33,779 nucleotides of DNA from a virus, in the IMG/VR virus record IMGVR_UViG_3300034198_002789, positions 1-33,779 of that record. One strand, given 5' to 3'. The notes beneath the pieces are model-generated. The model ran no database searches, was not told the DNA's origin, and saw nothing but the letters and a program-made list of their open reading frames with translations. Shown here piece by piece: positions 15,374 to 31,945 of the stretch. The translations under genes were made by a program, and so were the position numbers. The stretch's first letter is position 1. Every line of letters begins with the position of its first letter.

Positions 15374-15970
15374 TTAGAAGTTTAAACTCCATCTAAAAAC
15401 TAATCCAAAATAAGAAGTTTTTATTATTGGACTAAAGTATCTGTAAGCTACAAGTATTGAAGCTATAGGGTTATTATTTTTTATATTTTTTATGAATAAG
15501 CCAATTTCATTTATTGCTGATGGTAAATTATTACAAGAATTTTGATCTATGAAAATTGTGTATCTAACAGTATTATCATCAATTCTTGTAATGTTTTGTT
15601 GTGGAATTACCCCATACCATACAGCATTATTTTGAACAGAGTTATTCTTAATTTGATACCCTGAAGTTGAAAGGACATTACCACTATCCCCAGTGTATTG
15701 GGGACTGGTCGTCAAAGGTCCACTCAATGAATTGGTAGAGCTAGTTTCAAGAGAAGTATTTCCTGAAGTTCCTAATTGAAATCTATCAATCTGGTAATCT
15801 AAAATTGAATTAGATCCAGATAGGGCAAATAAATGTGCTAAAGCCACACCCATGCCTGAGACAATTATATTATGATCATCAAAAACAACTTCTTCACTAC
15901 CGTCACCATGTAGTTTAGAAATAGTTAAATGACCTTTAATATCCAGTTCTTCAATTAAATTTAACATCAT
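15374..15970 (-). CDS. Small fibre-like virion protein
   Basis: A 198-aa protein whose start is set at the ATG ending at 15970 because that ATG overlaps the stop of the Kelch gene as ATGA; a second ATG follows at once. The codon further upstream at 15988 is TTG and inside the Kelch gene. Recognisable stretches are VVFDDHNIIVSGMGVALAHL and DYQIDRFQLGTSG near the N-terminus and the C-terminal AINEIGLFIKNIKNN, then YRYFSPIIKTSYF with a final FRWSLNF. The I-N-E-I-G-L-F type strand is common in phage tail fibre and collar proteins, where it sits in the distal beta-domain. No enzyme motif is present. A fibre segment, fibre tip or fibre connector is likely; partner proteins would be the neighbouring Kelch and beta-helix products. 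Confidence 0.72.
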   Translation of the reverse strand: MMLNLIEELDIKGHLTISKLHGDGSEEVVFDDHNIIVSGMGVALAHLFALSGSNSILDYQIDRFQLGTSGNTSLETSSTNSLSGPLTTSPQYTGDSGNVLSTSGYQIKNNSVQNNAVWYGVIPQQNITRIDDNTVRYTIFIDQNSCNNLPSAINEIGLFIKNIKNNNPIASILVAYRYFSPIIKTSYFGLVFRWSLNF

Positions 15971-17958
15971 ACCATTAATAATTCCCAAGTAAAATAAATA
16001 TAATTAATCCCATCAGCACAGTAATAATTAAAAGCTGAAATTCCACCTGTTGCATCCTTCATATATAGTAGATCTTTATTAAATGTCTTTTTTGCAAATA
16101 ATTTATGTTTTCTTACATTATTTAGAGTTTTAAAGTCATATGGTGGGGAATAACCTTGTTTTAACATTTCTTTTAAATCTAAATACCAAAGTCCTAATTG
16201 GTATATACCCCCGAATAAAAGTAAACCACCGGCATCCCCAGGAGGTAAAGCCCATTTTATTGAAACTTTATTAGGGAATGATAAAGATGCTAGAGCGGGC
16301 CTAATTGCTCCATATAAATAAGGTGCTGGGGGAGTGTTATTATAAAGTGTATTATGTGTTGCAGCATATCCTTCAGCAAACTTTAAGAATCCAGAAGAAT
16401 CCATAACAGATAATTGATTATAGAGACTACTTAAAGTTCCTGAAGCTGCCGTTAGGGAGTAGTCAGCAGATGACACCAACCAATACTTTGTGCCCCCAGA
16501 AGCGGGGAAGCATCCTATAAAGTTAGCATATGCTGATAAATTTGGATCTATAATTGAGTTTAAACAATGTCCAACGTCTGGGACCCCAGAATAATAATTT
16601 GGAACAGTAGAATTTAATTCTAGTCTTCTATCTAATGGGGTTGGGGATGTGGGTAGTAAATTATAAATTTCTGCTAATGCAGATGCAGTGGCGGACGTAT
16701 GGTAACTTTTTACATTATTTTCATATGATAATGTTTTTATAATTTTATCATTTGATATGTAAGTATTGGATAAAGTAGTATCTTTATAGTAACATGCTGC
16801 ATGACCAAATAATCCTGAACCAGTTATATTGTCTGTGGTGTAGTTAGTAAAAGTACTAAAAATATCATCAATTTTATATACAGAATTTCTTGTTGAACTA
16901 GTTTCTAGAGAGCTTGCGCCACCATAAATAATAGAATAATTTTGATTAGGATTATAAACTAAAGTATGACCATATAATTTTGGACCAGCAGTTAAAGTAT
17001 ACCAATCATTCTCATAAAACCATAATTGATCATTAACTGGATTTGTTACGCTGGATGTAAGGCCACCATACATCAGGGTACCATATCGTAAAGTACCATC
17101 TACAGTTCCAGAACAATATGTCATTCCAAATAATCGTCTACCTGAGGGTCTTTGAAAATATCCATTCCCAGTTTGAATCTGTTCTCCGTTATCTATTTTT
17201 AATTCCCAATTAATCCCATCATACTCCCAAAGATCATTCATTACTGTTTGGGTATTACTAGTTCCACCAAATAAAATAATTTTTTGTTTATTAGGGTTAT
17301 AAACTATTCTATGATCTGCTCTTGCTTGTGGGTTAGTGGGTAAAATTAATTGAGTCCAACTAGTCCCATCCCATTTCCAAGTTTCATTAGTATAAGTATT
17401 ATTAACAGTTCTACCACCAAATAATAAGGTATATCCACCTTTTTCAAAATAAGCCATGGAATGGCCAGACCTTGGCCCAGGGCCTGAGGTAGTTTTTAAT
17501 TCCCAAACATAAGATGATGGTGTAGTTACAGTTGCACTAGCTTCCCAAGTATCAGAGCAGTATGTTACTCCACCTGAAGTTCCACCAAATAAAACTAGCT
17601 TACCCCTAGTTGAATCATATACGATATCATGAAATTTTCTAGCTACAGGCTTTGTAATACTGGCACTAGTGGAACTTACATATACAGTAGATATATCATA
17701 AAATTTATTTTGAAGTTCAAGACTAGATGTATCTCCTCCAAAAATTACTACCTGCTGTTTTGTTACTGAGAATCCTGAGGTATCATATCTTAATATATGA
17801 GCATGTTGTTTAAAACCAGCAGCATCTTTCCCATAAGTTATAGCATGGAAAGTATAATTAGATGTATCTAATATCGCAGACGCAGATGGAATACTAGATA
17901 AACTGCGATTTGCAGTTAGCACATCAACAATTAATTCTCCTGCTCCATCTAATATCAT
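15967..17958 (-). CDS. Kelch-repeat beta-propeller tail protein
   Basis: A 663-aa protein with clear Kelch repeats. Gly-Gly blade motifs occur at residues 73-75 (VVIFGG), 124-126 (LVLFGG), 180-182 (TLLFGG), 230-232 (IILFGG), 297-299 (TLMYGG) and 345-347 (SIIYGG). They are followed by the expected D-x-W-x-(Y/W)-D-G strand, as in NETWKWDGTSW and NDLWEYDGINW. A further LLLFGG at 579-584 with LWYLDLKE behind it lies after about 230 residues without repeats. The spacing of about 50 residues suits a six- or seven-bladed propeller. Kelch propellers bind proteins or carbohydrates; galactose oxidase has the fold, but its copper ligands are not evident, so a binding role is favoured. Gene position after the wedge genes and before other fibre-type genes marks it as a virion adhesin. 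The ATG follows the gp7-like stop with no Shine-Dalgarno sequence. Confidence 0.88.
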   Translation of the reverse strand: MILDGAGELIVDVLTANRSLSSIPSASAILDTSNYTFHAITYGKDAAGFKQHAHILRYDTSGFSVTKQQVVIFGGDTSSLELQNKFYDISTVYVSSTSASITKPVARKFHDIVYDSTRGKLVLFGGTSGGVTYCSDTWEASATVTTPSSYVWELKTTSGPGPRSGHSMAYFEKGGYTLLFGGRTVNNTYTNETWKWDGTSWTQLILPTNPQARADHRIVYNPNKQKIILFGGTSNTQTVMNDLWEYDGINWELKIDNGEQIQTGNGYFQRPSGRRLFGMTYCSGTVDGTLRYGTLMYGGLTSSVTNPVNDQLWFYENDWYTLTAGPKLYGHTLVYNPNQNYSIIYGGASSLETSSTRNSVYKIDDIFSTFTNYTTDNITGSGLFGHAACYYKDTTLSNTYISNDKIIKTLSYENNVKSYHTSATASALAEIYNLLPTSPTPLDRRLELNSTVPNYYSGVPDVGHCLNSIIDPNLSAYANFIGCFPASGGTKYWLVSSADYSLTAASGTLSSLYNQLSVMDSSGFLKFAEGYAATHNTLYNNTPPAPYLYGAIRPALASLSFPNKVSIKWALPPGDAGGLLLFGGIYQLGLWYLDLKEMLKQGYSPPYDFKTLNNVRKHKLFAKKTFNKDLLYMKDATGGISAFNYYCADGINYIYFTWELLMV

Positions 17959-20900: not shown

Positions 20901-21901
20901 CCTATCAACTCAGCTAGCATTGGGATATACTCATCTGGGCACTCGTCAAGGTCGTTCAATACTTCTATCCTATCGACCATGTTAGAGTAATCAGCAAATG
21001 CAAATGAAAATGCTTTAAGTAATTTTAGGAATGGACCTTGTAATGATTTTGTAGTTAGGAGGAAAGAGTTATCTAGGTAATCTCTTATTGCAGTTTTTAC
21101 TCTAACATCTCCTTGATCCATGTAGGATGGAGAGTATACAACATCCATCAGAGTTAGTAGCTTATCTAGTTGTTGAGTTCCACTAGTAAAAGCATTTGAT
21201 GTTGATAGATATTGCTCAGGAGTAAAATCAATGGGTAGTATTTGGTTATTTCTCCATATGCTACATACGGAGTAATTTTTCCAAATATACTCTGTTAAAC
21301 CTTTTATACCATCATTTAATGTTACGTCTTCTGATCTATAAGTTTTATTTATTAATGTGTTATAAACAAATGAAGATGGGTTGTAAGATAAATTTGGATT
21401 TGAAAAATTTAAAAAGTATAGCCAAGATAGATTCTTTATTAAGTAATCATGATTAGCACTCACACTAGTTCCAACGAACTGTAGTGAGGGGGTATTAACA
21501 GTTATTCCAGGTAATAGGGTATTTAATAAGAAATCTGAAAATGCTTCAGATGTAGTAAAGTTTCTAAAAGAATAATTTAATGGTATTAAAATTTTATTTT
21601 CAAAGTCTTGAATACTTATATTAGTTAAATTATTTTGTTTTATAAAAAATCTTGATATACCTACTGGTTTATTAATTGCACTAAATTCAGAATTTAACCC
21701 TGCACTAACTGTTAATACCGAAGATATAATTCCTATTGTTTTTAAATTGCTATTTATAATTTGATCTATTATATCAATTTTTTCATCTTTTAATGCATAG
21801 TCCTGCTCAAAATACATTGATGGTAATAAATATTTCATTACACCATCGTAGTTTGATTTATGGTATTGTCTGTTATCTATAAATTGAACTGGACTAGACA
21901 T
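17960..21901 (-). CDS. Large baseplate wedge protein (gp7-like, P2 gpI-type segment)
   Basis: A 1313-aa protein proposed as the gp7-type core of the baseplate wedge. The key segment is about residues 315-375: LNDLDECPDEYIPMLAELIG, then WRLQLANAVDIYKTVGTKKS and IQFVINSVLG. This is the pattern of phage tail protein I (P2 gpI family), which forms the wedge together with the gp6/J-type protein; T4 gp7 (1032 aa) contains the same core. The first 300 residues are helical and Asn/Ser-rich. The later 900 residues include a basic stretch (PRKTHRRRNHKFLLP) and several beta-rich parts, and look like added outer domains. It overlaps the gp6 stop by 8 bases, so the pair is co-translated, and gp25-gp6-gp7 adjacency matches baseplate wedge composition. 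It is longer than T4 gp7 by almost 300 residues. Confidence 0.78.
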   Translation of the reverse strand: MSSPVQFIDNRQYHKSNYDGVMKYLLPSMYFEQDYALKDEKIDIIDQIINSNLKTIGIISSVLTVSAGLNSEFSAINKPVGISRFFIKQNNLTNISIQDFENKILIPLNYSFRNFTTSEAFSDFLLNTLLPGITVNTPSLQFVGTSVSANHDYLIKNLSWLYFLNFSNPNLSYNPSSFVYNTLINKTYRSEDVTLNDGIKGLTEYIWKNYSVCSIWRNNQILPIDFTPEQYLSTSNAFTSGTQQLDKLLTLMDVVYSPSYMDQGDVRVKTAIRDYLDNSFLLTTKSLQGPFLKLLKAFSFAFADYSNMVDRIEVLNDLDECPDEYIPMLAELIGWKLYGSDPVRWRLQLANAVDIYKTVGTKKSIQFVINSVLGPGVKDVSSSISECWESYVPFLIYYALATESPLLKDFSTWTPRLQHDLNVVGYSFSSMDENIRMCVDKIITDTVYQFKNNFILAGAPFNLNSLNFVFNYRGRDLKVPPFEEIPYYSKVIMNTQMIDYIEDRLLCFQVPIEFARKVSDYIKSRTLLADDDFSMRNSWLMFTSSMQFPPNWDDVIKDVTNSKSEYLPLWNGKSSHFKLILDISSFDFSKTTLEADSKVALTMIAQAVEDFTPAKSIGELIARASLSSSDYSMSNVHFQYINSNIKDTARLNVASNMFLGGYGSSALLMSTYKKGLNNNGVNLSRRNSDSISDPLMVPSGTIGLLPRKTHRRRNHKFLLPTEGFYNKSGFNMPSPFESYSGSFMPLGLIPSSQTYVPVTDHVNLPDIYNKCENLNSTKTYYGVAVSNTFPVRGWRGIESNAKITSKGVRPDYYLDYGQLDPLIATIHYINENAKLFQASSYYSTRQDELIASGIYDNLLINYVNNLTQFSGGFPNSIDDYYNFKLGREFHKLYYDYTHNFQRHRVTLGVLDLDGPTVFAHAYGSILMNSKLKDLGSFGSNVTTTSLENLIEININSNLTSGTFVASSTSSIPINYADYRNSGVLKYVELCQVSGSSPRNTFAILSIPKPSGPESRYNPLIHDNILIRQQSYDKLGRILFDIKKYQTDQNLGFDVSNNFLTPNHEYKLSFNSIICDEDGRNTGGGTFGVWIHTKEENGKVWSYCKDKCWKQHSVSDITSDLILSQYSNLYSHPFTARDLEVIRCSRFVTIDNPLRKSDVIASLSESEFITNELSFNTNNKDIILPSDYLNEVHRLDQNYIIEIFTLPTQNSKFSLMYKFNLIDLTLSKWAKPLVGVINNEDFRINLSKEQLLTIIRYLNNIANTYASRVAANTSSYYETSGGSRISYAESPDWSSPGTQTLNGSYIVSSITLKN

Positions 21902-23492
21902 ATTCTACGTTTAGTGTATAGTTATTTAATTGTATAATTTCGTTGAAATTAATTTTGATTGATTCAGGGACATTATCAATAGTAGCAAATCGAACTTCCT
22001 GAATTTCAAAAATTGAATGCATTAAGTCTTGTGGATTGAATTCTTTTCCAAAGTCTGTGTTATCAACATTGAAGAAATCAAGTATTGCAGTATTTACCTT
22101 AGCCTTTATCATGCTCTCCATATTTTCATACTTCTTATCTAATCTAAGTGATATGATTAAATCTAGAGTTCTTATTAGGCCATCGACTACAATTACTTCA
22201 TCAGTTAACATCTTCTTATCTTCAATCGCCTGTAATAATTGTCTCTTGAATTCAGGAGTTGATTTTCTTAATTGTAGATTATTAGCCTTCTCTAAAACAT
22301 AGAGGTCAATGATATTCGCTGAGGAATAAGCCCTTCTGGTGACTGCCATAGCCTTTCCAACAGAGCCATATGAGGAGATGTGGCCGTTGACGAAAGCCTT
22401 GTAATCTGATAAAGTTACCAGTCTATTTTGTGATTTAAATATTTGAGGACCATATTTCTTTGCATGGAATATTGTCTCTGCGTCAGATCCCCCAGTCCCT
22501 TGTGACGTATTTTCAATAGTAGCAGTTTTAGTTGTGGGTGTTCCATTGGTAAACGTTACAGAAGTTTTTGAATTAATTAAACCATTAATTATATTACCTC
22601 TGGTTCCACCACCTACACGGTAAATTATTCTATATTGATCACCGACTGCTGGGGACTTGCCAGTTACATTGTCTCCAAATACTAACGTTCCTCCGTAATT
22701 ATCATTAGATATTAATTGGAATACTTTATCATTAATGCCAGAAGCAAAGAATAGGTTGTTAACTTGGCGATATAGACCGCTGGTTGATGAATCTCCAATC
22801 ACGTAAGCCTGAATGCTACCCTCAATGATTGGAGTCTGTTGTAAGGTAACGGTCTTTAGAGTATCACTATTGGTAAAGGTTCCCGAATCTATAACCAAAG
22901 AACCTTCAAGTAAAACCAAATTAGATATTACTGTATTTGATGCTTTTTCAGAATCGTAAATAATTACATTACCCTCTGTATTTACGGTATCAATATCTCC
23001 GTTAGGTGTAACTTTATAGATTGAATAAGTTAGGGGTCTTCCATCCTCAGGTGAAGTTACTGTTACAGTTCTATTCGCTGGTGGTATAGTGATGTAGGCA
23101 TTCGTTGACCACCCAGGATTCGTATCCAAGGTCAGCCTAGCATTAGCTGCGGCTGCTATTGGACCTTTCATTCTGATGCCAATCAACTGCATCAGGTCCT
23201 TTACGTTATCTCTCACTCTGGCAGTTCTTAGATAATTTTCATTAGCTAAGTAGTCGGCCTTGTATGAAAGAACGTGCCCCATGTATGCAACCAGTTCAAT
23301 TAATACCATCCCAAAGTCTGACTCAGAGAAGTAATTATAATCTAATGGATATACAGCTTGTATATATTTTAATAGAGATTGTCTCAACGAGATGAAGTCG
23401 GTAGATGCAAAGTCTATTAAATTTTGCTTATCCACATCCTCAACTTTTGCTAGTTTGAGAAAATCAGAAGTTACATTTCCTTTGAATGACAT
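21894..23492 (-). CDS. gp6: Baseplate wedge protein (T4 gp6 / baseplate J-like)
   Basis: A 532-aa wedge subunit (T4 gp6 is 660 aa), which forms the ring around the hub and transmits the trigger for sheath contraction. The N-terminal part is typical: DFISLRQSLLKYIQAVYPLD, YFSESDFGMVLIELVAYMGH, then VLSYKADYLANENYLRTARV and LMQLIGIRM. The central part has QFGD-type beta sequence around YGGTLVFGDNVTGKSPAVGD followed by RIIYRVGGGTRGN, a hallmark of baseplate J-like domains. The C-terminal part is DLIISLRLDKKYENM followed by a short helix and DLMHSIFEIQEVRFATI. The start overlaps the gp25 stop as TAATG. It lacks part of the T4 length, mostly in the middle, but no core motif appears missing. Confidence 0.93.
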   Translation of the reverse strand: MSFKGNVTSDFLKLAKVEDVDKQNLIDFASTDFISLRQSLLKYIQAVYPLDYNYFSESDFGMVLIELVAYMGHVLSYKADYLANENYLRTARVRDNVKDLMQLIGIRMKGPIAAAANARLTLDTNPGWSTNAYITIPPANRTVTVTSPEDGRPLTYSIYKVTPNGDIDTVNTEGNVIIYDSEKASNTVISNLVLLEGSLVIDSGTFTNSDTLKTVTLQQTPIIEGSIQAYVIGDSSTSGLYRQVNNLFFASGINDKVFQLISNDNYGGTLVFGDNVTGKSPAVGDQYRIIYRVGGGTRGNIINGLINSKTSVTFTNGTPTTKTATIENTSQGTGGSDAETIFHAKKYGPQIFKSQNRLVTLSDYKAFVNGHISSYGSVGKAMAVTRRAYSSANIIDLYVLEKANNLQLRKSTPEFKRQLLQAIEDKKMLTDEVIVVDGLIRTLDLIISLRLDKKYENMESMIKAKVNTAILDFFNVDNTDFGKEFNPQDLMHSIFEIQEVRFATIDNVPESIKINFNEIIQLNNYTLNVEYV

Positions 23493-23941
23493 TAAACTAT
23501 ATTAACTCCTAATTCAAATTGATCATTATTCTGCATCATAACGCAGAATAATTTAATATATAGACTATGCCCGCCTGATAAAGTTTTATTACCATATGGG
23601 AATATTTGAATCTTAACTAACTGAACATCCCTTGCATACCTAGCAAATGAATCCTGGATATCTCTTCTGATTCCGGTAAAAGTAACTTGATCTATTGGCT
23701 CCATTAGATAGTTTTTAAGGTTAGTTCCATAGTTTGGCAACATTAATCTCTCACCTTTTGTGGTAAGCAATAGTTGAACTAAAGCACTTTTAACTACTTC
23801 AAGATCGGAGCTTTTCTTAAGGAATCCACCCTTTTTTAATTCCCCAAATGGGTATTTAATTCCATAGAGTTTAAAATTCTTGCTTGTAGAAGAATTTGAA
23901 ACTGCTTTGGAAATAGGTGCTCCGTATAGGTTACTATTCAT
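23492..23941 (-). CDS. gp25: Baseplate wedge protein (T4 gp25 family)
   Basis: A 149-aa protein of the GPW/gp25 family (T4 gp25 is 132 aa), the wedge component that nucleates sheath polymerisation and has a lysozyme-like but structural fold. The conserved core is VVKSALVQLLLTTKGERLML followed by PNYGTNLKNYLMEP, including the E-R-x-x-x-P-x-Y-G-T pattern, then IRRDIQDSFARYARDVQLVK and a strand reading IQIFPYG. The N-terminal 25 residues are less conserved. The gene is immediately upstream of gp6 and overlaps its start, an arrangement seen in many contractile injection systems. No strong ribosome binding site precedes the ATG (a weak ACGG lies about 7 bases before it). Confidence 0.95.
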   Translation of the reverse strand: MNSNLYGAPISKAVSNSSTSKNFKLYGIKYPFGELKKGGFLKKSSDLEVVKSALVQLLLTTKGERLMLPNYGTNLKNYLMEPIDQVTFTGIRRDIQDSFARYARDVQLVKIQIFPYGNKTLSGGHSLYIKLFCVMMQNNDQFELGVNIV

Positions 23942-23972: not shown

Positions 23973-26900
23973 TTAAATTACCCCACTTAAATTAGGTAAC
24001 GTCGGATTAGGGTTATTTGTGGATTCACTATTGGCAAAAGCTGAACTTATAATACCATTTAAAGTAGTAAGATATGCTGGATATTCTGAAGTAATTAACG
24101 CCCAACAATTTTTAATCTGAGCATACCAGTTAAAAATTGCAGTATCATATTTAGCCCAATCTATTTTATCTAATACGTTTTGAGTTGAACTTACTTCAGG
24201 GTCTACAGAAGCACCAGCTTTGTAATAACAGGAACCACTTAAGAATCCTGGTCCCCTTAAGTAATAACAAGCTGGTTTCTGGCAAGAAGATAGATCTGCT
24301 AAGAATGGCCTAATATATTGTGAAGCAACACTGTAAGGTTGTGTATACCCATAATATTGAGTTCCTGATAAGTATTTTGGAGTTCCTATAATTGGGTTTA
24401 CACTTGATACAGAAGATTTTATATTTGATTGTGGAGCAAAAGGTTCGTAAGATTTTAATAAATTTTGTAAATTTATTCCCGATACTATTGTGGGATATGT
24501 AACTGGATTTATAGAATCATTAAAAGATGATATAGGTAATGCTCTTTGTAATTCTTCTAGTAAGTTTATTTTAAAATAACAAAGTTTATCTCTTAAATAA
24601 TCCCCAGGTCTTGCTGATAAGTAAACTGAATTTAAAAAACTAAAAACAGTATTATCTAATGCATAGTTTGAGAAAGATGCATGTCCTGTATTAAAATACT
24701 TATCTATTGAAATTAAAAATTCTGAAGAATTATTTTTTGTAATATCATTTTTATCTATGTAATAATTTTTATTTGATATGTCATACCCTAACGACTTTGC
24801 GTAATCAGAGTTACCAAAAGGAGCATATTTAGTTCCAATAGGTAATGGGGTACCAGGATAGGGATTAAATGAAGTGTCTATACTATTTAAATGCGGCAAA
24901 GCATAAAACATAGTTTGCATATACTCAAAAAAGTCTTCCCCTTCAGTTCCCCATTGAGAAAGTCTGGTCATCGAAGAAGCTGAATATGTCGCATTAGCTA
25001 GTGTATTTAATTCATAATTAGTTTTTTCAGTAATGGTATTTGGGAATAATACACTTTGTATCTTTTTTCTTCCATAAGTATTAGGATCTAAACTCTTCAG
25101 ATCGGATAATGCTTTTAGTTGTAAAGCAGATACATATCGTGCATCACGGGCAGTTCCGTCTGCATAAAAGATACCCCTACTTAAATTATTTGGTTTGATA
25201 CTTATATTTCTATCAATCATTGAATCAGTTATAAATCCAACCTGAAGAGAACTAAATGAAGATACTTCAGTATGCAAATGATTTAACTTTGATGCTAACG
25301 TTGCATCAATTACCATTAGTGGTTTATTTACAGAAACACAAGCTGATAATGCATCTAAATAATTTACTAGCCTATCAATAAATCCACCATTAGATCCTTT
25401 ATAACAAATATAATCTAATTGATTGTATATTGAAGATATTGGATAAGTAGAAATTCCTTGCACTGGTAAAGCTTTAATTAAGTTTGCAGTGCTACTTGCA
25501 ATATACATTAAAGAGCTAGATGAATAATTAATATTATCTCCACCACCTTTAAAAGTTACAATAGATGATGGCGGGTCGTAAGTAAGGATATTAGGATCTG
25601 GGTCTCCTAGGGTTGACACGCTAGGAACATAGCTACCTAAAGCAGATATGTAATTTCTAATTCCTGAATAGTAATTACCCGCATAACGACTATCAGGTAA
25701 TACTGTTATCATCCTTGAATTTTCAGATCCTATTTTTCTTACTTTAAAATAATTTCTTATACCTTCAATTAATCTTCTATAATTTTTTCCAACTCTTTCA
25801 CAAATTTGAGGAACTGATTCTCCCCCTGTATCAGGATTATTTGTTCCTAAGAAAATTAAACCAGCCCTAAAAACTATTCTATTTTTTCCATATTGTTTTT
25901 CTAAAACATCAATACTACTTCCTAACCAATTTATAAATTTGTAATAAATTTTGTCATTGTAAGTATCCCAGTCATTTATAGAAGTTGCGTAAATATAAGG
26001 ATCTGCAACACTAGCATACGTTAAAGGAGTAGAAGCGGGAGCTGCCCCATCTTTCCCCATCTTTACAATAAATGCTGGCCGTCCATGGAACGTTTTTAAA
26101 TCTTTTCCAAATAATATTTCAGTTCCAAATCCTACACCACGTATTCCTAATACTGGACTAGTATTTTCTTCTACAATTAATTGCTCAAACTTAGGCACAG
26201 TTAAAGTAGTTCTATCTCCAATTACAGATATATTTTGAAATTGCCCTGTGGCATCTCTTGACCAAAATGATGCGCTGGGTTGGAATATATAGACATCCTC
26301 TACTGCACCAGCCGTGTAGCCCATACCTGTAACTTGAAGTATGTTACCTCCACCTCTAGCATGTTCATCGCCAATAATAAAATACAAATCTATTGGACTA
26401 AGTGTTGCAGTTACAGGCACTGATACTTTCTTAAATGATGTTGTCACATTTTGATGTGCTGGTATCAAAGAATTTGTCTTTGATATTGCAGAGGCCAAGA
26501 AATTATATGCACTAACATCGGCAGGATTCAATACGGAATCGAATCCAACGTTAGCCATTACTTCCCAAGTTAAAGTAGACTTATATCCCGATAATGCCTC
26601 TACAACATCTTCAATATATGTATTGCCACTAACAACCATTGACGATGGGTGTCTAGTTAAGAAGTGGTCATTGTAAACTGTTGGACATCTTTGATAGTGA
26701 TGCAAACCATTAATCATTGCATCTTCTAAGTTCTGAGGATCATATCCACCTATCTCATGGTATCTACCTTTGGTATCTTTTCCTGGGAAGTCATCTGGGG
26801 TATCTGCTTCAAATAAAACCCACTGCACATACATCTTATTATCCTGTGCGAGCCTTCCCATGGTCTTAATTCTTTGAATAAACTTATCACCCATGGAAGC

Positions 26901-27176
26901 CCAGCAGTATAAATCAAGATGAATTCTTAGTAAGTTAATCCCGGCAGACTTCAATAGTCTAATTTGATCCGACACTTCCTTTTCGTTAAAGTGAACCCAA
27001 GTAGAAATTCTGGTTGATCCATTAAACATCAAAGCAGCAGAATCCATACTAGAAGTTAATCCCTGAAATAGGTTTCTTACAGTCGTTGGAATATGTCCAG
27101 ACTTTTCCCAAGTGCTTTCATAGGTTGGGAAGAAGTCTGCCCCTCTACAATTTATAAAGTAATGTCGGTCACTCAT
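23973..27176 (-). CDS. Glycoside-hydrolase-like (GH5-type TIM barrel) virion protein, probably inactive
   Basis: A 1067-aa virion protein. Its first 690 residues read like a GH5-type (clan GH-A) barrel with insertions. Residues 70-92 (QIRLLKSAGINLLRIHLDLY) match the N-(V/L)-(V/L)-R-(I/L) strand. Residues 113-125 (NKMYVQWVLFEAD) match the next strand. TLTWEVMANVGF (201-212) aligns with the W-E-I-M-N-E-P motif, with Ala-Asn in place of Asn-Glu, so the acid/base Glu is missing. QLDYICYKGS (586-595) resembles the D-(V/F)-(V/I)-x-(H/F)-x-Y strand, and VNKPLMVIDATL (616-627) aligns with K-P-(V/L)-x-(I/V)-x-E, with Asp624 for the nucleophile Glu. Residues about 690-1067 are Asn/Ser/Tyr-rich with five Cys near 965-990. 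I infer a sugar-binding baseplate protein derived from a glycosidase. The fold needs structural confirmation. It precedes gp25. Confidence 0.68.
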   Translation of the reverse strand: MSDRHYFINCRGADFFPTYESTWEKSGHIPTTVRNLFQGLTSSMDSAALMFNGSTRISTWVHFNEKEVSDQIRLLKSAGINLLRIHLDLYCWASMGDKFIQRIKTMGRLAQDNKMYVQWVLFEADTPDDFPGKDTKGRYHEIGGYDPQNLEDAMINGLHHYQRCPTVYNDHFLTRHPSSMVVSGNTYIEDVVEALSGYKSTLTWEVMANVGFDSVLNPADVSAYNFLASAISKTNSLIPAHQNVTTSFKKVSVPVTATLSPIDLYFIIGDEHARGGGNILQVTGMGYTAGAVEDVYIFQPSASFWSRDATGQFQNISVIGDRTTLTVPKFEQLIVEENTSPVLGIRGVGFGTEILFGKDLKTFHGRPAFIVKMGKDGAAPASTPLTYASVADPYIYATSINDWDTYNDKIYYKFINWLGSSIDVLEKQYGKNRIVFRAGLIFLGTNNPDTGGESVPQICERVGKNYRRLIEGIRNYFKVRKIGSENSRMITVLPDSRYAGNYYSGIRNYISALGSYVPSVSTLGDPDPNILTYDPPSSIVTFKGGGDNINYSSSSLMYIASSTANLIKALPVQGISTYPISSIYNQLDYICYKGSNGGFIDRLVNYLDALSACVSVNKPLMVIDATLASKLNHLHTEVSSFSSLQVGFITDSMIDRNISIKPNNLSRGIFYADGTARDARYVSALQLKALSDLKSLDPNTYGRKKIQSVLFPNTITEKTNYELNTLANATYSASSMTRLSQWGTEGEDFFEYMQTMFYALPHLNSIDTSFNPYPGTPLPIGTKYAPFGNSDYAKSLGYDISNKNYYIDKNDITKNNSSEFLISIDKYFNTGHASFSNYALDNTVFSFLNSVYLSARPGDYLRDKLCYFKINLLEELQRALPISSFNDSINPVTYPTIVSGINLQNLLKSYEPFAPQSNIKSSVSSVNPIIGTPKYLSGTQYYGYTQPYSVASQYIRPFLADLSSCQKPACYYLRGPGFLSGSCYYKAGASVDPEVSSTQNVLDKIDWAKYDTAIFNWYAQIKNCWALITSEYPAYLTTLNGIISSAFANSESTNNPNPTLPNLSGVI

Positions 27177-27177
27177 T

Positions 27178-29247
27178 TTAGATCCCTATCGGATGAACAG
27201 CCTTTACAATAGATTCTGGAACATCAAACACCGGCTTAGTCTTAGCTGCTCCAGATTCTATTAGAATTTTAATTTTCTCTTTAACTTCTAAAGCATTTGC
27301 TCCAAGCACTATCCAATATTGCCAGCCACCCCAACCTGGAATTTTCTTTTGATGATCTCTATTACCCATAGTGATAACTGTTCCAAAGCCGCTGTGCCAA
27401 ATTAAACAATTACCATCAGCACTTGTGTCATAAGCAGAAATACTATTTTTACGACTTGTTAATACTGCTTTAGAGTGTCTCCAATTAAATTCATTAAAAT
27501 CACCTTGAAGTCCATTACCTTTATATATGATATGTCTTTGCCCTTGTCCATATTGTGGTTGAGCATCTTCATCAATATAATAATTATTTAAATCAGTATC
27601 CCCTTTAGCAAGAACACCAAATGCAAATGGGCCTGAGGCAACATATGGTTTATGTTTGCCACCTGGATTTGAAAAACTTGTAGCCCCAGTAGTTTTTTCT
27701 AATATTAAAGCATAATAACAAGCTTTATCTGCTAATTCTTGATTTCCTGTATTAAAGCCATTAATAAATGGCTCCCAATTAAAAAACATTAATCCTGATC
27801 CATTAAAAACATCAGTAGCATTATTTCTAAGCCAAATTCTTCGTCTACCATTTACGGGATCGTCTGCTGGGTTATTAGCTGTCCCATTATCTCCCCAAAT
27901 AGTATCATTATAACCTAAATCATTTCTAAATATATTAGTTGACCATTGCGTAAAAGTGGAATTACTTAAACCTCTCGCTGGGGGTAAGCTATTATTTTCA
28001 GTAAATTCAGAGTAAGTACAATTTCTAAAACAAGAACTAACTGTCGCGCTAAGGTATGGCGCAGCGCCAACAATGGCTGGTCTCCCACCAGAAATTTCTA
28101 AATCAAGATCTAAAAATTCATCTCTGTAATAATTATACAAATAACCTTTATCAAAAATATTAGGAACAATTGGCCCTACATCTCTTTGATATCTAGTTTG
28201 ACCATACTCACCTGATGGGACTACTCGTGGAACATGATGCCACATTTTATGATGTATAACACCCTCTATTCCACTAAAGTTTACAGTAATTTTTTCAAAA
28301 TATCTTTCATGCCTATAAAGGGCTGGATGTGCAAGGTCACCCCCGTGATCTCCTGCATTTATAGTTCCATCTTCTCCACCTTTGTATGATATAAAATCAA
28401 ATGGTATTATACACGATTCAAATGCAGCAGATGCTACATTATTTGGAGCTAATCCTTGAGTATAATTCCTATAAATTGTTGGCGATTGAGACCAACTAGC
28501 ATCTGGATACCATTTTATACCCTTGTAAGGCGCATCAGTAGATTCCGGTCTAAATGATCCAGCTACACCACCTCTAGTTTGGTTTGATCTAAAGTTTTTA
28601 ATTTTTTCTGCTGGATCATCAAGAATTTCTCCTCTAAAATTAATAGTATATTTTGTTACACTAGAAAATGCTGATACATCTTGAGGATTTCCTGGGCGAT
28701 ATATATTTACCCCTTTAATTGGTGCATTACTAAATTCCATACACCATTCGGCAACGTTGGTACCCATACCTGTGTCAGCGCCACCTTTACCTAAGATATA
28801 ACAAGAAGTATCTAAGCTTGGTATCTTATAAATAAATTGCTGAACATATCCGGGGCGTTTACTAAATAATGCTACAATAGTGCTACTGGCCCCTGTGGAA
28901 GACACATGCTCCACATTCTCTATAATCTCATAATTAATTTGACTTGCGCCTAACCCACTCGTTCCGCTGACTGGCCTGTAAGCGCCCATTTCCGTATTTA
29001 ATTGGCTAAATCTACTTTTATCCCAGTTATAATTTGCCCAATAATCAGGTCTTTCAAATAATGGATTTTTTGCGGGTATAATTTTATTATTTTTTACACT
29101 TAAATTTTTCTGTAAGTCTTGAGCACTTAAACAAAATCCCTCAGGAATAGAACTAAAATTATCTACTTTACCTTGATCAATAATATTAACAATTACAAAT
29201 GATCCTGTATTATTAATTCCAGAAAAAACAGTAGGTTGAATTGCCAT
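27178..29247 (-). CDS. Large virion protein, unrecognised family
   Basis: A 689-aa protein that I cannot place in a known family. It is rich in Asn, Gly, Asp, Tyr and Trp, the composition of extracellular beta-rich or lectin-like proteins, and has no signal peptide or membrane segment. Residues 300-338 contain a striking cluster of acids and histidines: D300, H301, D304, H307, H313, then IHHKMWHHVP with H332, H333, H337 and H338, a candidate metal site. A second notable part is near the C-terminus: DGNCLIWHSGFGTVITMG then GWGGWQYWIVLG. Cysteines are scattered (about ten) and could be structural. It is flanked by one-base gaps to the LamG-type and glycosidase-like genes, so it belongs to the same transcript and probably to the same baseplate or fibre assembly. 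A glycan-binding or fibre role is inference. Confidence 0.65.
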   Translation of the reverse strand: MAIQPTVFSGINNTGSFVIVNIIDQGKVDNFSSIPEGFCLSAQDLQKNLSVKNNKIIPAKNPLFERPDYWANYNWDKSRFSQLNTEMGAYRPVSGTSGLGASQINYEIIENVEHVSSTGASSTIVALFSKRPGYVQQFIYKIPSLDTSCYILGKGGADTGMGTNVAEWCMEFSNAPIKGVNIYRPGNPQDVSAFSSVTKYTINFRGEILDDPAEKIKNFRSNQTRGGVAGSFRPESTDAPYKGIKWYPDASWSQSPTIYRNYTQGLAPNNVASAAFESCIIPFDFISYKGGEDGTINAGDHGGDLAHPALYRHERYFEKITVNFSGIEGVIHHKMWHHVPRVVPSGEYGQTRYQRDVGPIVPNIFDKGYLYNYYRDEFLDLDLEISGGRPAIVGAAPYLSATVSSCFRNCTYSEFTENNSLPPARGLSNSTFTQWSTNIFRNDLGYNDTIWGDNGTANNPADDPVNGRRRIWLRNNATDVFNGSGLMFFNWEPFINGFNTGNQELADKACYYALILEKTTGATSFSNPGGKHKPYVASGPFAFGVLAKGDTDLNNYYIDEDAQPQYGQGQRHIIYKGNGLQGDFNEFNWRHSKAVLTSRKNSISAYDTSADGNCLIWHSGFGTVITMGNRDHQKKIPGWGGWQYWIVLGANALEVKEKIKILIESGAAKTKPVFDVPESIVKAVHPIGI

Positions 29248-29248
29248 A

Positions 29249-31945
29249 TTATAAACTCACTATATCTTCCCATCCAAGGGTTAAAGTATCTATGTTCTTG
29301 AAGAAGTTTTTCTGAGTTTTATAATTGCTTAACACTTGTGATGGTGTAAGTGGTTTAGAATAGAATTTTAAACTACCTAAATAACCCTTCAAGCCACTAA
29401 TCAAACCTCCATAAGTTCCACCCATGAAGTTCCCTTTATTGTAAAGTCCATCTGTATATCCTCCACCAACTACCCAAGGAGTAAAGAAGGTGTCGAGTTT
29501 TGGACCATACTTCAATGAGTTTGGAGCTAATGGACCGACAGAAGTAGTATTATATTCAAAACTATTGCCTACCTTAAAGGTGGGTAGCTCAGGCATCCTG
29601 TATTTAGGTATTCCAAATACGTAGGATATACTTGACGTAGCTATCTTATTCCCATCCAAATAGAAATTAATTTCATCCATCTTTGGATCAAATGTAACAG
29701 CCACATGACAGAAATCATATTGACATGCTGACAATGAAGCTCCATTTATCACTTGATTTATAGGGACAATCATTGAGTGGTAGCTTGTGTTGGTGGTGCA
29801 CCCATCACTATCAAAATATGATCTATTTATTAATCCAGCAGATGAAGCCGTAATTGATTGCGTTGGGGCTAAGAAAAATACCGTTTCCGTAGCTGGATTA
29901 TCATCATTATTATTAGATGCTGGTAATGAACTTACAATTCTTCTATCTCTGGTGAAGCCCATCATAAATCCGCGGACGTTTGTTCCGTTAGTATTTACAG
30001 GTGCATACTCAGTGTCTGTGTTTGTTCCAGTTCCAATGTATCCAACATTTTCATTCGATAGTATAAGTCTGTATAATCCTGATACGCTACCAATGTCATA
30101 CCCCGTAGATATTGAATCTAAGTTTGGAACGTGAGTCCAGAAATCAATCGTAGCTCCGTCTGGGTTATATAGAAGATCGTTGAATTCTTTTGAACTTGGT
30201 AATCTTAAGAAACTTCCTAAAGCAGATGGCGCTGTAGGATTGGTTTGTGAGTGTTTAGTAATGCCCTCAAAGTATGGGATGCCAAGGCCCCTAGAGAATA
30301 CTGACCCTGAATCTTTGGTTACTAGCTGCGCATACAAAGCATCTGTAATTGATGCTGAATTTCTAGTTGTAAATAAAGTTGATGATGGGTCTTGGTAGTC
30401 AGTCTCTAAGAAATTATACATGGCAAACAAGCCATCAGTTGTTAGAGAGTTTTCAGTCTGTAAAATTACTGCATCCGTAGACGATACGCTGCTACCATCA
30501 AATATGATTGCACCGGCACCATCCTCTGCAATGATAAGATGCTCTAGGGTTGAATTCTTATTATGAACTTTAAAGTTGGTCGTTGTTAGTTTAGTTTGAA
30601 TTGGAGATACTACCCCTGAAATATCAACCTGGCTAAATAACAATGCTTTTTGCTTCTGAACATCTAGGCTTATATTCAAACCACCCAGGTATGAGAAGTC
30701 GTTGATTGGAACTTCACCTGGATTATATCTTATTCTAGTTCCATAGAGGACAGGCAACACAACTGCAAGTTCAATCTGCTTCTTTCTCTTATTTATCTTA
30801 TCAGTAAACTGAGCATTCTCAGATATCATTGATTGCTTGAAATTCAATATAATTGAGGTTGGTGCTGAGTCTAATTCAAGGTCACTAAGTTGACCAGACA
30901 GATCATACATTCTCTTATTTCTATTCCCAATCAGATCTTGTAGGAATCCATCCTTATCGTAGTAATTTTGAATAGAAACTGTATCATTAATTATCTTAGG
31001 ATCTAATGTAGTATTTATGTAATCCTTTAGATCATTAATTGAAACACCTTTACCTCTTCCACCTACGTTTGGATTCTGTATAAACTTCCATCTCTCAGAA
31101 GCTGCAATTTCATTTTGTTTAGCTTTTACGTAGGTTAGTGCAGGAGAGATACCACTTGATTGTGAATCAAAATACAATCCGTCATTCGATAGTATGAACT
31201 GGCCTTGCGTTGATTTTGGAGGTCCATAAACCAGTCTGAATATCTCCTTCTCTGCCTCTTGAGCCGCAACACAATACTGCTCAAAGATCGTTCCCTGGAG
31301 GTATTGGCAGGCTTCAGAGTTGAACTGTGGGACACTAGTGGGGTTCCTTTGTCTTTCGGCTATGATACCCGTAATAGCATTAATTTGATCTGTAGCATCA
31401 CTTATAAAATTAGTAGCAGCCTCAACCTGTAATTTCTGCACAGCAAAGTTTTCATCTATAAAGTTTTGGAATGCTTCAGGATCAGTTGGTATGTTATCTG
31501 AAATTGAATGCTTGCTCTTTAAAAAGTTTTTAAAGTTATCTATACATTCTTTAATAGATTCAATTTCAGCAACCAAAGCTTGGTAATTAGCGTAAATATT
31601 ACCTAAAGCATTTGCAGCTTCCGTTAATGCTCCAATAGCCGCAATGATAGCCCCTAACGCACCACCTAAGCCATATTTAAAAAAGCCTGATACAAACGAA
31701 AATAGACCTTCAGTTGTAAGCCATTCAATTAATCCAAATAGATTTCTTAACTCTTGAAATACTGCTTTTATAATTGAATCTGCTAATTCAATACCTGCTT
31801 CCAACATGGATAGCATCAATGCCAATACTGGGGTTGGAAGCAGTGATAACACTCTGAGTCCAAGGTTCATGATACAGCTAGGGACACCGAATGCCGCTCC
31901 GGTGGAGGTTCCCATGCTCATAAATGTGTCTATATTAAATACCAT
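29249..31945 (-). CDS. Virion protein with hydrophobic N-terminus and LamG-like C-terminal domain
   Basis: An 898-aa virion protein with a two-part layout. The N-terminus has two long hydrophobic segments, residues 29-48 (RVLSLLPTPVLALMLSML) and 81-115 (GLGGALGAIIAAIGAL inside), joined by an amphipathic part and followed by a probable coiled coil at about 118-145 (YQALVAEIESIKECIDNFKN). Residues about 500-890 look like a laminin-G/concanavalin-type beta-sandwich: ATIDFWTHVPN, then FCHVAVTFDPKMDEINFYLD with GNKIA, and GYLGSLKFYSKPLTPSQVLS, the usual end of such domains. LamG folds bind sugars or proteins. The gene starts two bases after the spike gene stop, which suggests a place near the spike. 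Proteins of this type with N-terminal M-G-T-x-T-G-A-x-F-G-x-P-S-C occur, as far as I recall, in marine T4-like phages; that memory is unverified. Confidence 0.72.
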   Translation of the reverse strand: MVFNIDTFMSMGTSTGAAFGVPSCIMNLGLRVLSLLPTPVLALMLSMLEAGIELADSIIKAVFQELRNLFGLIEWLTTEGLFSFVSGFFKYGLGGALGAIIAAIGALTEAANALGNIYANYQALVAEIESIKECIDNFKNFLKSKHSISDNIPTDPEAFQNFIDENFAVQKLQVEAATNFISDATDQINAITGIIAERQRNPTSVPQFNSEACQYLQGTIFEQYCVAAQEAEKEIFRLVYGPPKSTQGQFILSNDGLYFDSQSSGISPALTYVKAKQNEIAASERWKFIQNPNVGGRGKGVSINDLKDYINTTLDPKIINDTVSIQNYYDKDGFLQDLIGNRNKRMYDLSGQLSDLELDSAPTSIILNFKQSMISENAQFTDKINKRKKQIELAVVLPVLYGTRIRYNPGEVPINDFSYLGGLNISLDVQKQKALLFSQVDISGVVSPIQTKLTTTNFKVHNKNSTLEHLIIAEDGAGAIIFDGSSVSSTDAVILQTENSLTTDGLFAMYNFLETDYQDPSSTLFTTRNSASITDALYAQLVTKDSGSVFSRGLGIPYFEGITKHSQTNPTAPSALGSFLRLPSSKEFNDLLYNPDGATIDFWTHVPNLDSISTGYDIGSVSGLYRLILSNENVGYIGTGTNTDTEYAPVNTNGTNVRGFMMGFTRDRRIVSSLPASNNNDDNPATETVFFLAPTQSITASSAGLINRSYFDSDGCTTNTSYHSMIVPINQVINGASLSACQYDFCHVAVTFDPKMDEINFYLDGNKIATSSISYVFGIPKYRMPELPTFKVGNSFEYNTTSVGPLAPNSLKYGPKLDTFFTPWVVGGGYTDGLYNKGNFMGGTYGGLISGLKGYLGSLKFYSKPLTPSQVLSNYKTQKNFFKNIDTLTLGWEDIVSL

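Follow-up and report, generated by a model that had tools for sequence, protein, structure and literature searches.

The window analyzed here is an entire IMG/VR record (33,779 bases), and its minus strand carries a 1067-aa ORF within a baseplate operon. Genes for gp25-like and gp6-like wedge proteins lie downstream of this ORF, and those for a 689-aa protein and a LamG-domain protein lie upstream (Table 1). The first-pass annotation had assigned the gene to such an operon and had pointed to two motifs in its product, and on both counts we agree: the wedge proteins are recognized by profile searches, WEVMANV occupies residues 204-210 (nt 26567-26547), and KPLMVID occupies residues 618-624 (nt 25325-25305). 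Encoded inside a tail/baseplate gene cluster, the protein sits where a receptor-binding protein is expected. The LamG core protein had no tblastn match among 50,697 named phage records and is present in many IMG/VR records, so that this phage group apparently has no sequenced isolate in the named-phage collection. The same tail operon also encodes a Kelch-repeat protein at 15967-17958 (Pfam PF24681, E 4.4e-29).

Table 1. Features of the 1067-aa gene and its neighbors in the window.
Feature	Position	Strand	Basis or comparison
gp6-like baseplate wedge protein	21894..23492	-	phrog_219, E 2.1e-43
gp25-like baseplate wedge protein, one flank of the cargo slot	23492..23941	-	Pfam GPW_gp25 PF04965, E 5.7e-11
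1067-aa GH-A-barrel protein, pseudoglycosidase candidate	23973..27176	-	ORF, 24-member family, fold
C-terminal part, residues 691-1067	23976..25106	-	common to relatives (phmmer); low pLDDT
Barrel, second part, residues 587-690 (β6-β8)	25107..25418	-	model strands
Asp624, nucleophile position of β7	25305..25307	-	Glu in 8/8 intact relatives
Lys593-x-Ser595, β6	25392..25400	-	His-x-Tyr in intact relatives
Insertion of ~320 aa, residues ~265-586, between β5 and β6	25419..26384	-	window only; blastp vs L002
DNINYS 547-552, putative SGNH block V remnant (..IHF)	25521..25538	-	MAFFT alignment by eye
GTNNPD 444-449, putative SGNH block III remnant (QGES)	25830..25847	-	MAFFT alignment by eye
GDEH 269-272, putative SGNH block I remnant (GQSN)	26361..26372	-	MAFFT alignment by eye; register shifts with trimming
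Barrel, first part, residues 1-250 (β1-β5)	26427..27176	-	model strands
Ala208-Asn209-Val210, acid/base site at end of β4	26547..26555	-	Asn-Glu in 8/8 intact relatives
Arg84 at β2, GH-A arginine	26925..26927	-	kept in 24/24 members
689-aa neighbor protein	27178..29247	-	related to L002 5879-7765
LamG-domain core protein, other flank of the cargo slot	29249..31945	-	Laminin_G_3 E 1.6e-5, slightly short of curated cut-off; synteny

Database searches with the 1067-aa protein returned little. It belongs to no PHROG or NCBIfam family, reaches no Pfam family above its cut-off, has no credible sequence homolog in the PDB and finds no relative by tblastn among the 50,697 named phage records. The GH5 model PF00150 scored 14.8 bits (E 0.021), under its cut-off of 23.5, and was likewise under cut-off for a relative, L083 (E 0.0036). 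Scans with the window protein as the sole query recovered no relatives. Instead, the family was recovered through scans with the conserved gp6 and with an alignment of the N-terminal region, followed by HMM searches of the resulting ORFs. This yielded 24 full-length members, the window's included, all of them from uncultured phages. One, a 718-aa homolog at a locus reached through its gp6 neighbor (L002), aligns collinearly with the window protein by blastp, with 52% identity over residues 1-264 and 32% over residues 587-1040; the stretch between is absent from it. A gp6 relative is present in the 595-kb phage LR756511, where the ORFs next to the gp25-position gene include no detectable homolog of the 1067-aa protein.

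The predicted fold is a (β/α)8 barrel of clan GH-A. We modeled the window protein with AlphaFold2 and 21 family rows and, as the check set beforehand required, found eight alternating β/α units, with strands at residues 11-14, 82-86, 116-123, 201-208 (β4), 243-245, 590-593, 620-625 (β7) and 647-650. Mean pLDDT was 44.7, with low confidence outside the barrel core; within the barrel, much of the first half was well predicted, with block means reaching 95, and pLDDT was ~54-80 over most of the second. A Foldseek search of this model against the PDB gave 11 matches below 1e-3. The 50 matches listed are GH-A clan enzymes judged by title, led by the GH5 mannanase 3wh9 (1.2e-4, over ~217 columns only). 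Residues 1-429 of L002, which form a full barrel free of the insertion, were predicted with a pLDDT of 70.4 and a pTM of 0.79. The best match of this barrel was the GH5_18 enzyme 9y4v (E 1.8e-7, 396 columns), with many further GH5, GH1, GH2 and GH10 matches and a target-normalized TM of up to 0.60. The matches listed for L002 are also GH-A by title.

In GH-A enzymes, a glutamate on β4 protonates the leaving group, a second on β7 attacks the anomeric carbon, and a conserved arginine on β2 contacts the nucleophile. In the 24-member alignment, eight members (L056, L067, L068, L071 and L108-L111) have Asn-Glu at β4, His-x-Tyr at β6 and Glu at β7 in every case; we call these intact, meaning that the residues are present by sequence. 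The other 16 members, the window's among them, have lost the full set. The window protein and L002 have A-N at β4, K-x-S at β6 and D at β7; a sub-clade of five (L007, L008, L011, L012 and L021) has H-D at β4 and D at β7; and a clade of nine, which we term K/A, has N/S-K at β4 and A at β7. Since all eight intact relatives have N-E and E in these columns, and the model places β4 and β7 there, the motif matches in the window are not chance. The first-pass annotation had proposed a barrel that began as a glycosidase and then lost both catalytic glutamates, which the model, the structure matches and the intact relatives support. Both glutamates are indeed replaced, but the loss is wider than it described, because His-x-Tyr of β6 and the β8 aromatic (T650 in the window) are gone too. 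Homology to a glycosidase combined with loss of its catalytic residues is one mark of a pseudoglycosidase, and the window protein has both. We also looked for substitute carboxylates at the usual GH-A positions of the barrel. None was positively found, and every one of these positions except the β2 arginine has changed. The aspartates that remain there are Asp624, found in all seven members of the window clade, and the acid/base aspartate of the H-D sub-clade, making some unusual Asp-based chemistry possible in this clade.

Loss of the residue set is a clade trait. When the catalytic columns are left out of the tree, the window protein, L002 and the H-D members form one group (support 99/99), and the K/A members form another (100/100). 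Two independent losses were considered and the claim dropped: a one-clade arrangement is rejected (p-AU 0.029) with L056 included, and a single loss stays compatible once this long-branch member is removed. Close pairs within the lost lineages have dN/dS values of 0.143, 0.103, 0.084 and 0.131, with a fifth pair at 0.43 on few changes, and these are therefore maintained rather than decaying proteins. The window-L002 pair is too distant (dS 1.5) for a firm estimate. Among the intact members, the near-identical L109 (8968-11112) and L111 (8968-11118) differ by ~27 nonsynonymous and 4 synonymous changes (dN/dS 1.9), perhaps reflecting recent diversifying selection, given the small numbers. Members of the K/A clade with ~1300 aa (L083, L074, L088, L091, L112, L117 and L119) carry an extra C-terminal domain of ~650 aa. 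Its NxDG and GDD motifs give it, by eye, the look of a polysaccharide-degrading β-helix, and it has no credible Pfam match or PDB sequence match.

To place the gene in its genomic setting, we surveyed 55 loci in which both flanks, the LamG protein and gp25, are visible, counting ORFs of at least 250 aa. The space between the flanks holds a member of the barrel family in 19 loci and is empty in 36; no locus has another gene there without the barrel family. Because this sample was drawn partly from scans with the barrel family itself, it is biased. Most plausibly, the barrel gene is optional cargo carried by the baseplate operon. In the window clade a second gene accompanies it in the slot, and the 689-aa neighbor is the probable second cargo or adhesin gene of the window. 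This second gene is co-directional in the window (27178-29247) and in L002, whereas several relatives encode it on the other strand; second-gene loci include L007 12049-14115(-), L008 12049-14115(-), L011 9106-11484(-), L021 9309-11732(-) and L003 3-1169(-). The window and L002 also differ in which of the two genes, barrel or second gene, comes first. These differences in strand and order suggest an invertible or independently exchanged adhesin gene.

The first-pass annotation had treated residues 1-690 as one domain, which does not hold: no other family member has residues ~265-586, which form an insertion, and a search for homologs of this segment detected none. The structural model is uninformative on it (pLDDT ~20-45). 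By eye, the insertion resembles an SGNH/SASA esterase with altered catalytic blocks. In one alignment, it follows the block order of SASA-type SGNH esterases from other tail proteins of this phage group, and the positions of the block I Ser and block V His fall on GDEH and DNIN, so that both residues would be lost, with a block I register that varies with trimming. The insertion has no Pfam match, and we probed its SGNH identity by hhalign, phmmer and PSSMs, using shuffled sequences and other proteins as controls. Equally good scores came from 5 of 60 shuffles with hhalign and from 20 of 400 with the best PSSM set, neither of which is significant, and we treat an SGNH/SASA-type domain here as a lead only. 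Intact domains of this type, with GQSN, QGE and IH, do occur in other tail proteins of the group; those bearing GQSN lie in the gp7-position protein (L035, L036, L064, L072 and L092) and at the C-terminus of the LamG protein (L054, L060-L062, L065, L066, L075 and L076). More tentatively, and on balance doubtful, a single tail protein might combine two defunct sugar-acting enzymes, one nested in the other: a GH-A pseudoglycosidase as the barrel and, in its substrate-face loop, a pseudo-esterase of SGNH/SASA type (with Ser replaced by Glu and His by Asn). Both would now serve as glycan-binding surfaces.

Loss of the canonical retaining mechanism in the window protein is well supported by its residue changes. 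An alanine mutant at the conserved His position of the GH5 enzyme CpMan5B is inactive (PMC3835425), and, without this His and both glutamates, the canonical double-displacement reaction should therefore not run. We consider it probable that the 1067-aa protein is a GH-A-derived accessory protein of the baseplate operon that has had its catalytic set replaced and now binds a host glycan on the tail without hydrolyzing it. Under this model, the N-terminal barrel would descend from a GH5-like retaining glycosidase of clan GH-A, and forms ancestral to the protein presumably cleaved a surface polysaccharide. In the window lineage, the acid/base Glu would have become Asn and the nucleophile Glu become Asp, along with replacement of the supporting Asn, His, Tyr and β8 aromatic. 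The β2 Arg and the barrel would have been kept, with selection acting to keep the protein in close relatives. Carried on the tail, the reshaped pocket, together with the insertion, whose loop is expected to lie on the barrel's substrate face, would bind the host glycan uncut and act as a receptor-binding or co-receptor module. A conserved family and a location in a tail operon make non-cleaving recognition of host glycans the most likely role, modeled on known pseudoglycosidases.

Three other explanations bear on these data. A barrel dead both as enzyme and as lectin might be a structural scaffold whose sole role, as a spacer or adaptor, is to keep the C-terminal part or the insertion in place on the baseplate. 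The β6 His and Tyr and the β8 aromatic, which contact substrate in GH5 enzymes, were lost along with the catalytic pair, and with the His and Tyr gone, which touch substrate or the catalytic pair there, the pocket may have ceased to bind sugar altogether. The extra C-terminal domain that accompanies the dead barrel in the K/A clade could have assumed the function. However, the window clade shows no variation at R84, W204-E205-V206-M207 or D624, which lie at or close to the mouth of the barrel; this is more than a spacer would require, even if part of this conservation may be structural, and we regard a scaffold as rather unlikely. We also think it unlikely, and a little more so, that the protein is a divergent glycosidase still acting on sugar through other residues, for example with Asp624 as nucleophile or with a lone carboxylate and substrate assistance.

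The main enzymatic alternative to non-cleaving binding is that Asp624 still supports some chemistry: the β7 Asp is invariant in the window clade, five of its seven members have Asp at the acid/base position as well, and Arg84 is kept. Against this, Asn209 of the window protein and L002 cannot serve as an acid, the β6 His and Tyr are gone and the conserved His position is the one that CpMan5B needs for activity (PMC3835425), and Asp624 may merely preserve a salt bridge with Arg84, the two forming a remnant charge pair. That the fold is a generic TIM barrel with no glycosidase ancestry is consistent with the failure of any glycosidase family to reach its cut-off, PF00150 included. Yet the structure matches listed are led by GH-A clan enzymes rather than by other TIM-barrel superfamilies, and intact relatives from the same slot have every residue of the GH-A set on the expected strands, which leaves this explanation highly improbable.

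Known systems offer partial parallels to the barrel of the window protein. The enzymes of GH5 and clan GH-A (ManBK 3wh9, GH5_18 9y4v and the T. petrophila mannanase 3pz9) share its (β/α)8 fold, strand order, β2 Arg and β4 and β7 positions, and eight phage relatives keep their whole catalytic set. The window protein differs from them in sequence (~10-16% identity), in lacking both glutamates, the NEP Asn, the β6 His and Tyr and the β8 aromatic, and in its 320-aa insertion. Among viral models (BFVD), the best structural matches are phage proteins annotated as GH5 (A0A6J5RDT7 and A0A6J5RA53 of uncultured Caudovirales, and A0A1Y0T2M7 of Pseudomonas phage Skulduggery); these have a phage-encoded GH5-like barrel in common with it, at ~8-9% identity. 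Pseudoglycosidases such as klotho (GH1-like) and YKL-39 (a GH18 homolog) can retain glycan binding after catalysis is lost, and these two kept the glycosidase fold as binding proteins (PMC7828330). By analogy, the window protein probably grips host sugars instead of cutting them. Klotho and YKL-39 are animal receptors or secreted lectins, whereas the window protein appears to be cargo of a phage baseplate operon with same-slot relatives that keep the catalytic set. For the insertion, the nearest precedents are tail proteins with SGNH domains, namely gp63.1 of E. coli phage G7C and Klebsiella prophage RBPs, in which sugar-modifying domains serve as receptor-binding enzymes (PMC13123978). Intact SASA-type domains also occur elsewhere in the phage group. 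Those SGNH-domain tail proteins that were tested are active esterases, whereas the insertion, if it is an SGNH domain by a homology that is statistically unsupported, lacks the Ser and His.

Searches of open-licence full texts turned up no description of a GH-A pseudoglycosidase in a phage, which is weak evidence given that scope. Arguments about how a phage cutting enzyme becomes a binding protein usually draw on isolated examples. In this phage group, a single slot contains both states, with 8 members that have a complete GH-A set and 16 in which it is replaced yet the protein is under purifying selection, and the step from enzyme to adhesin is thus testable by expressing paired relatives. 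If the nested reading of the insertion is true, a single slot would preserve a series in which an intact glycosidase is followed by a dead barrel and then by a dead barrel joined to another carbohydrate-active domain, and the window protein would stand at one end of it. If only their fold were considered, such proteins would be mislabeled as depolymerases.
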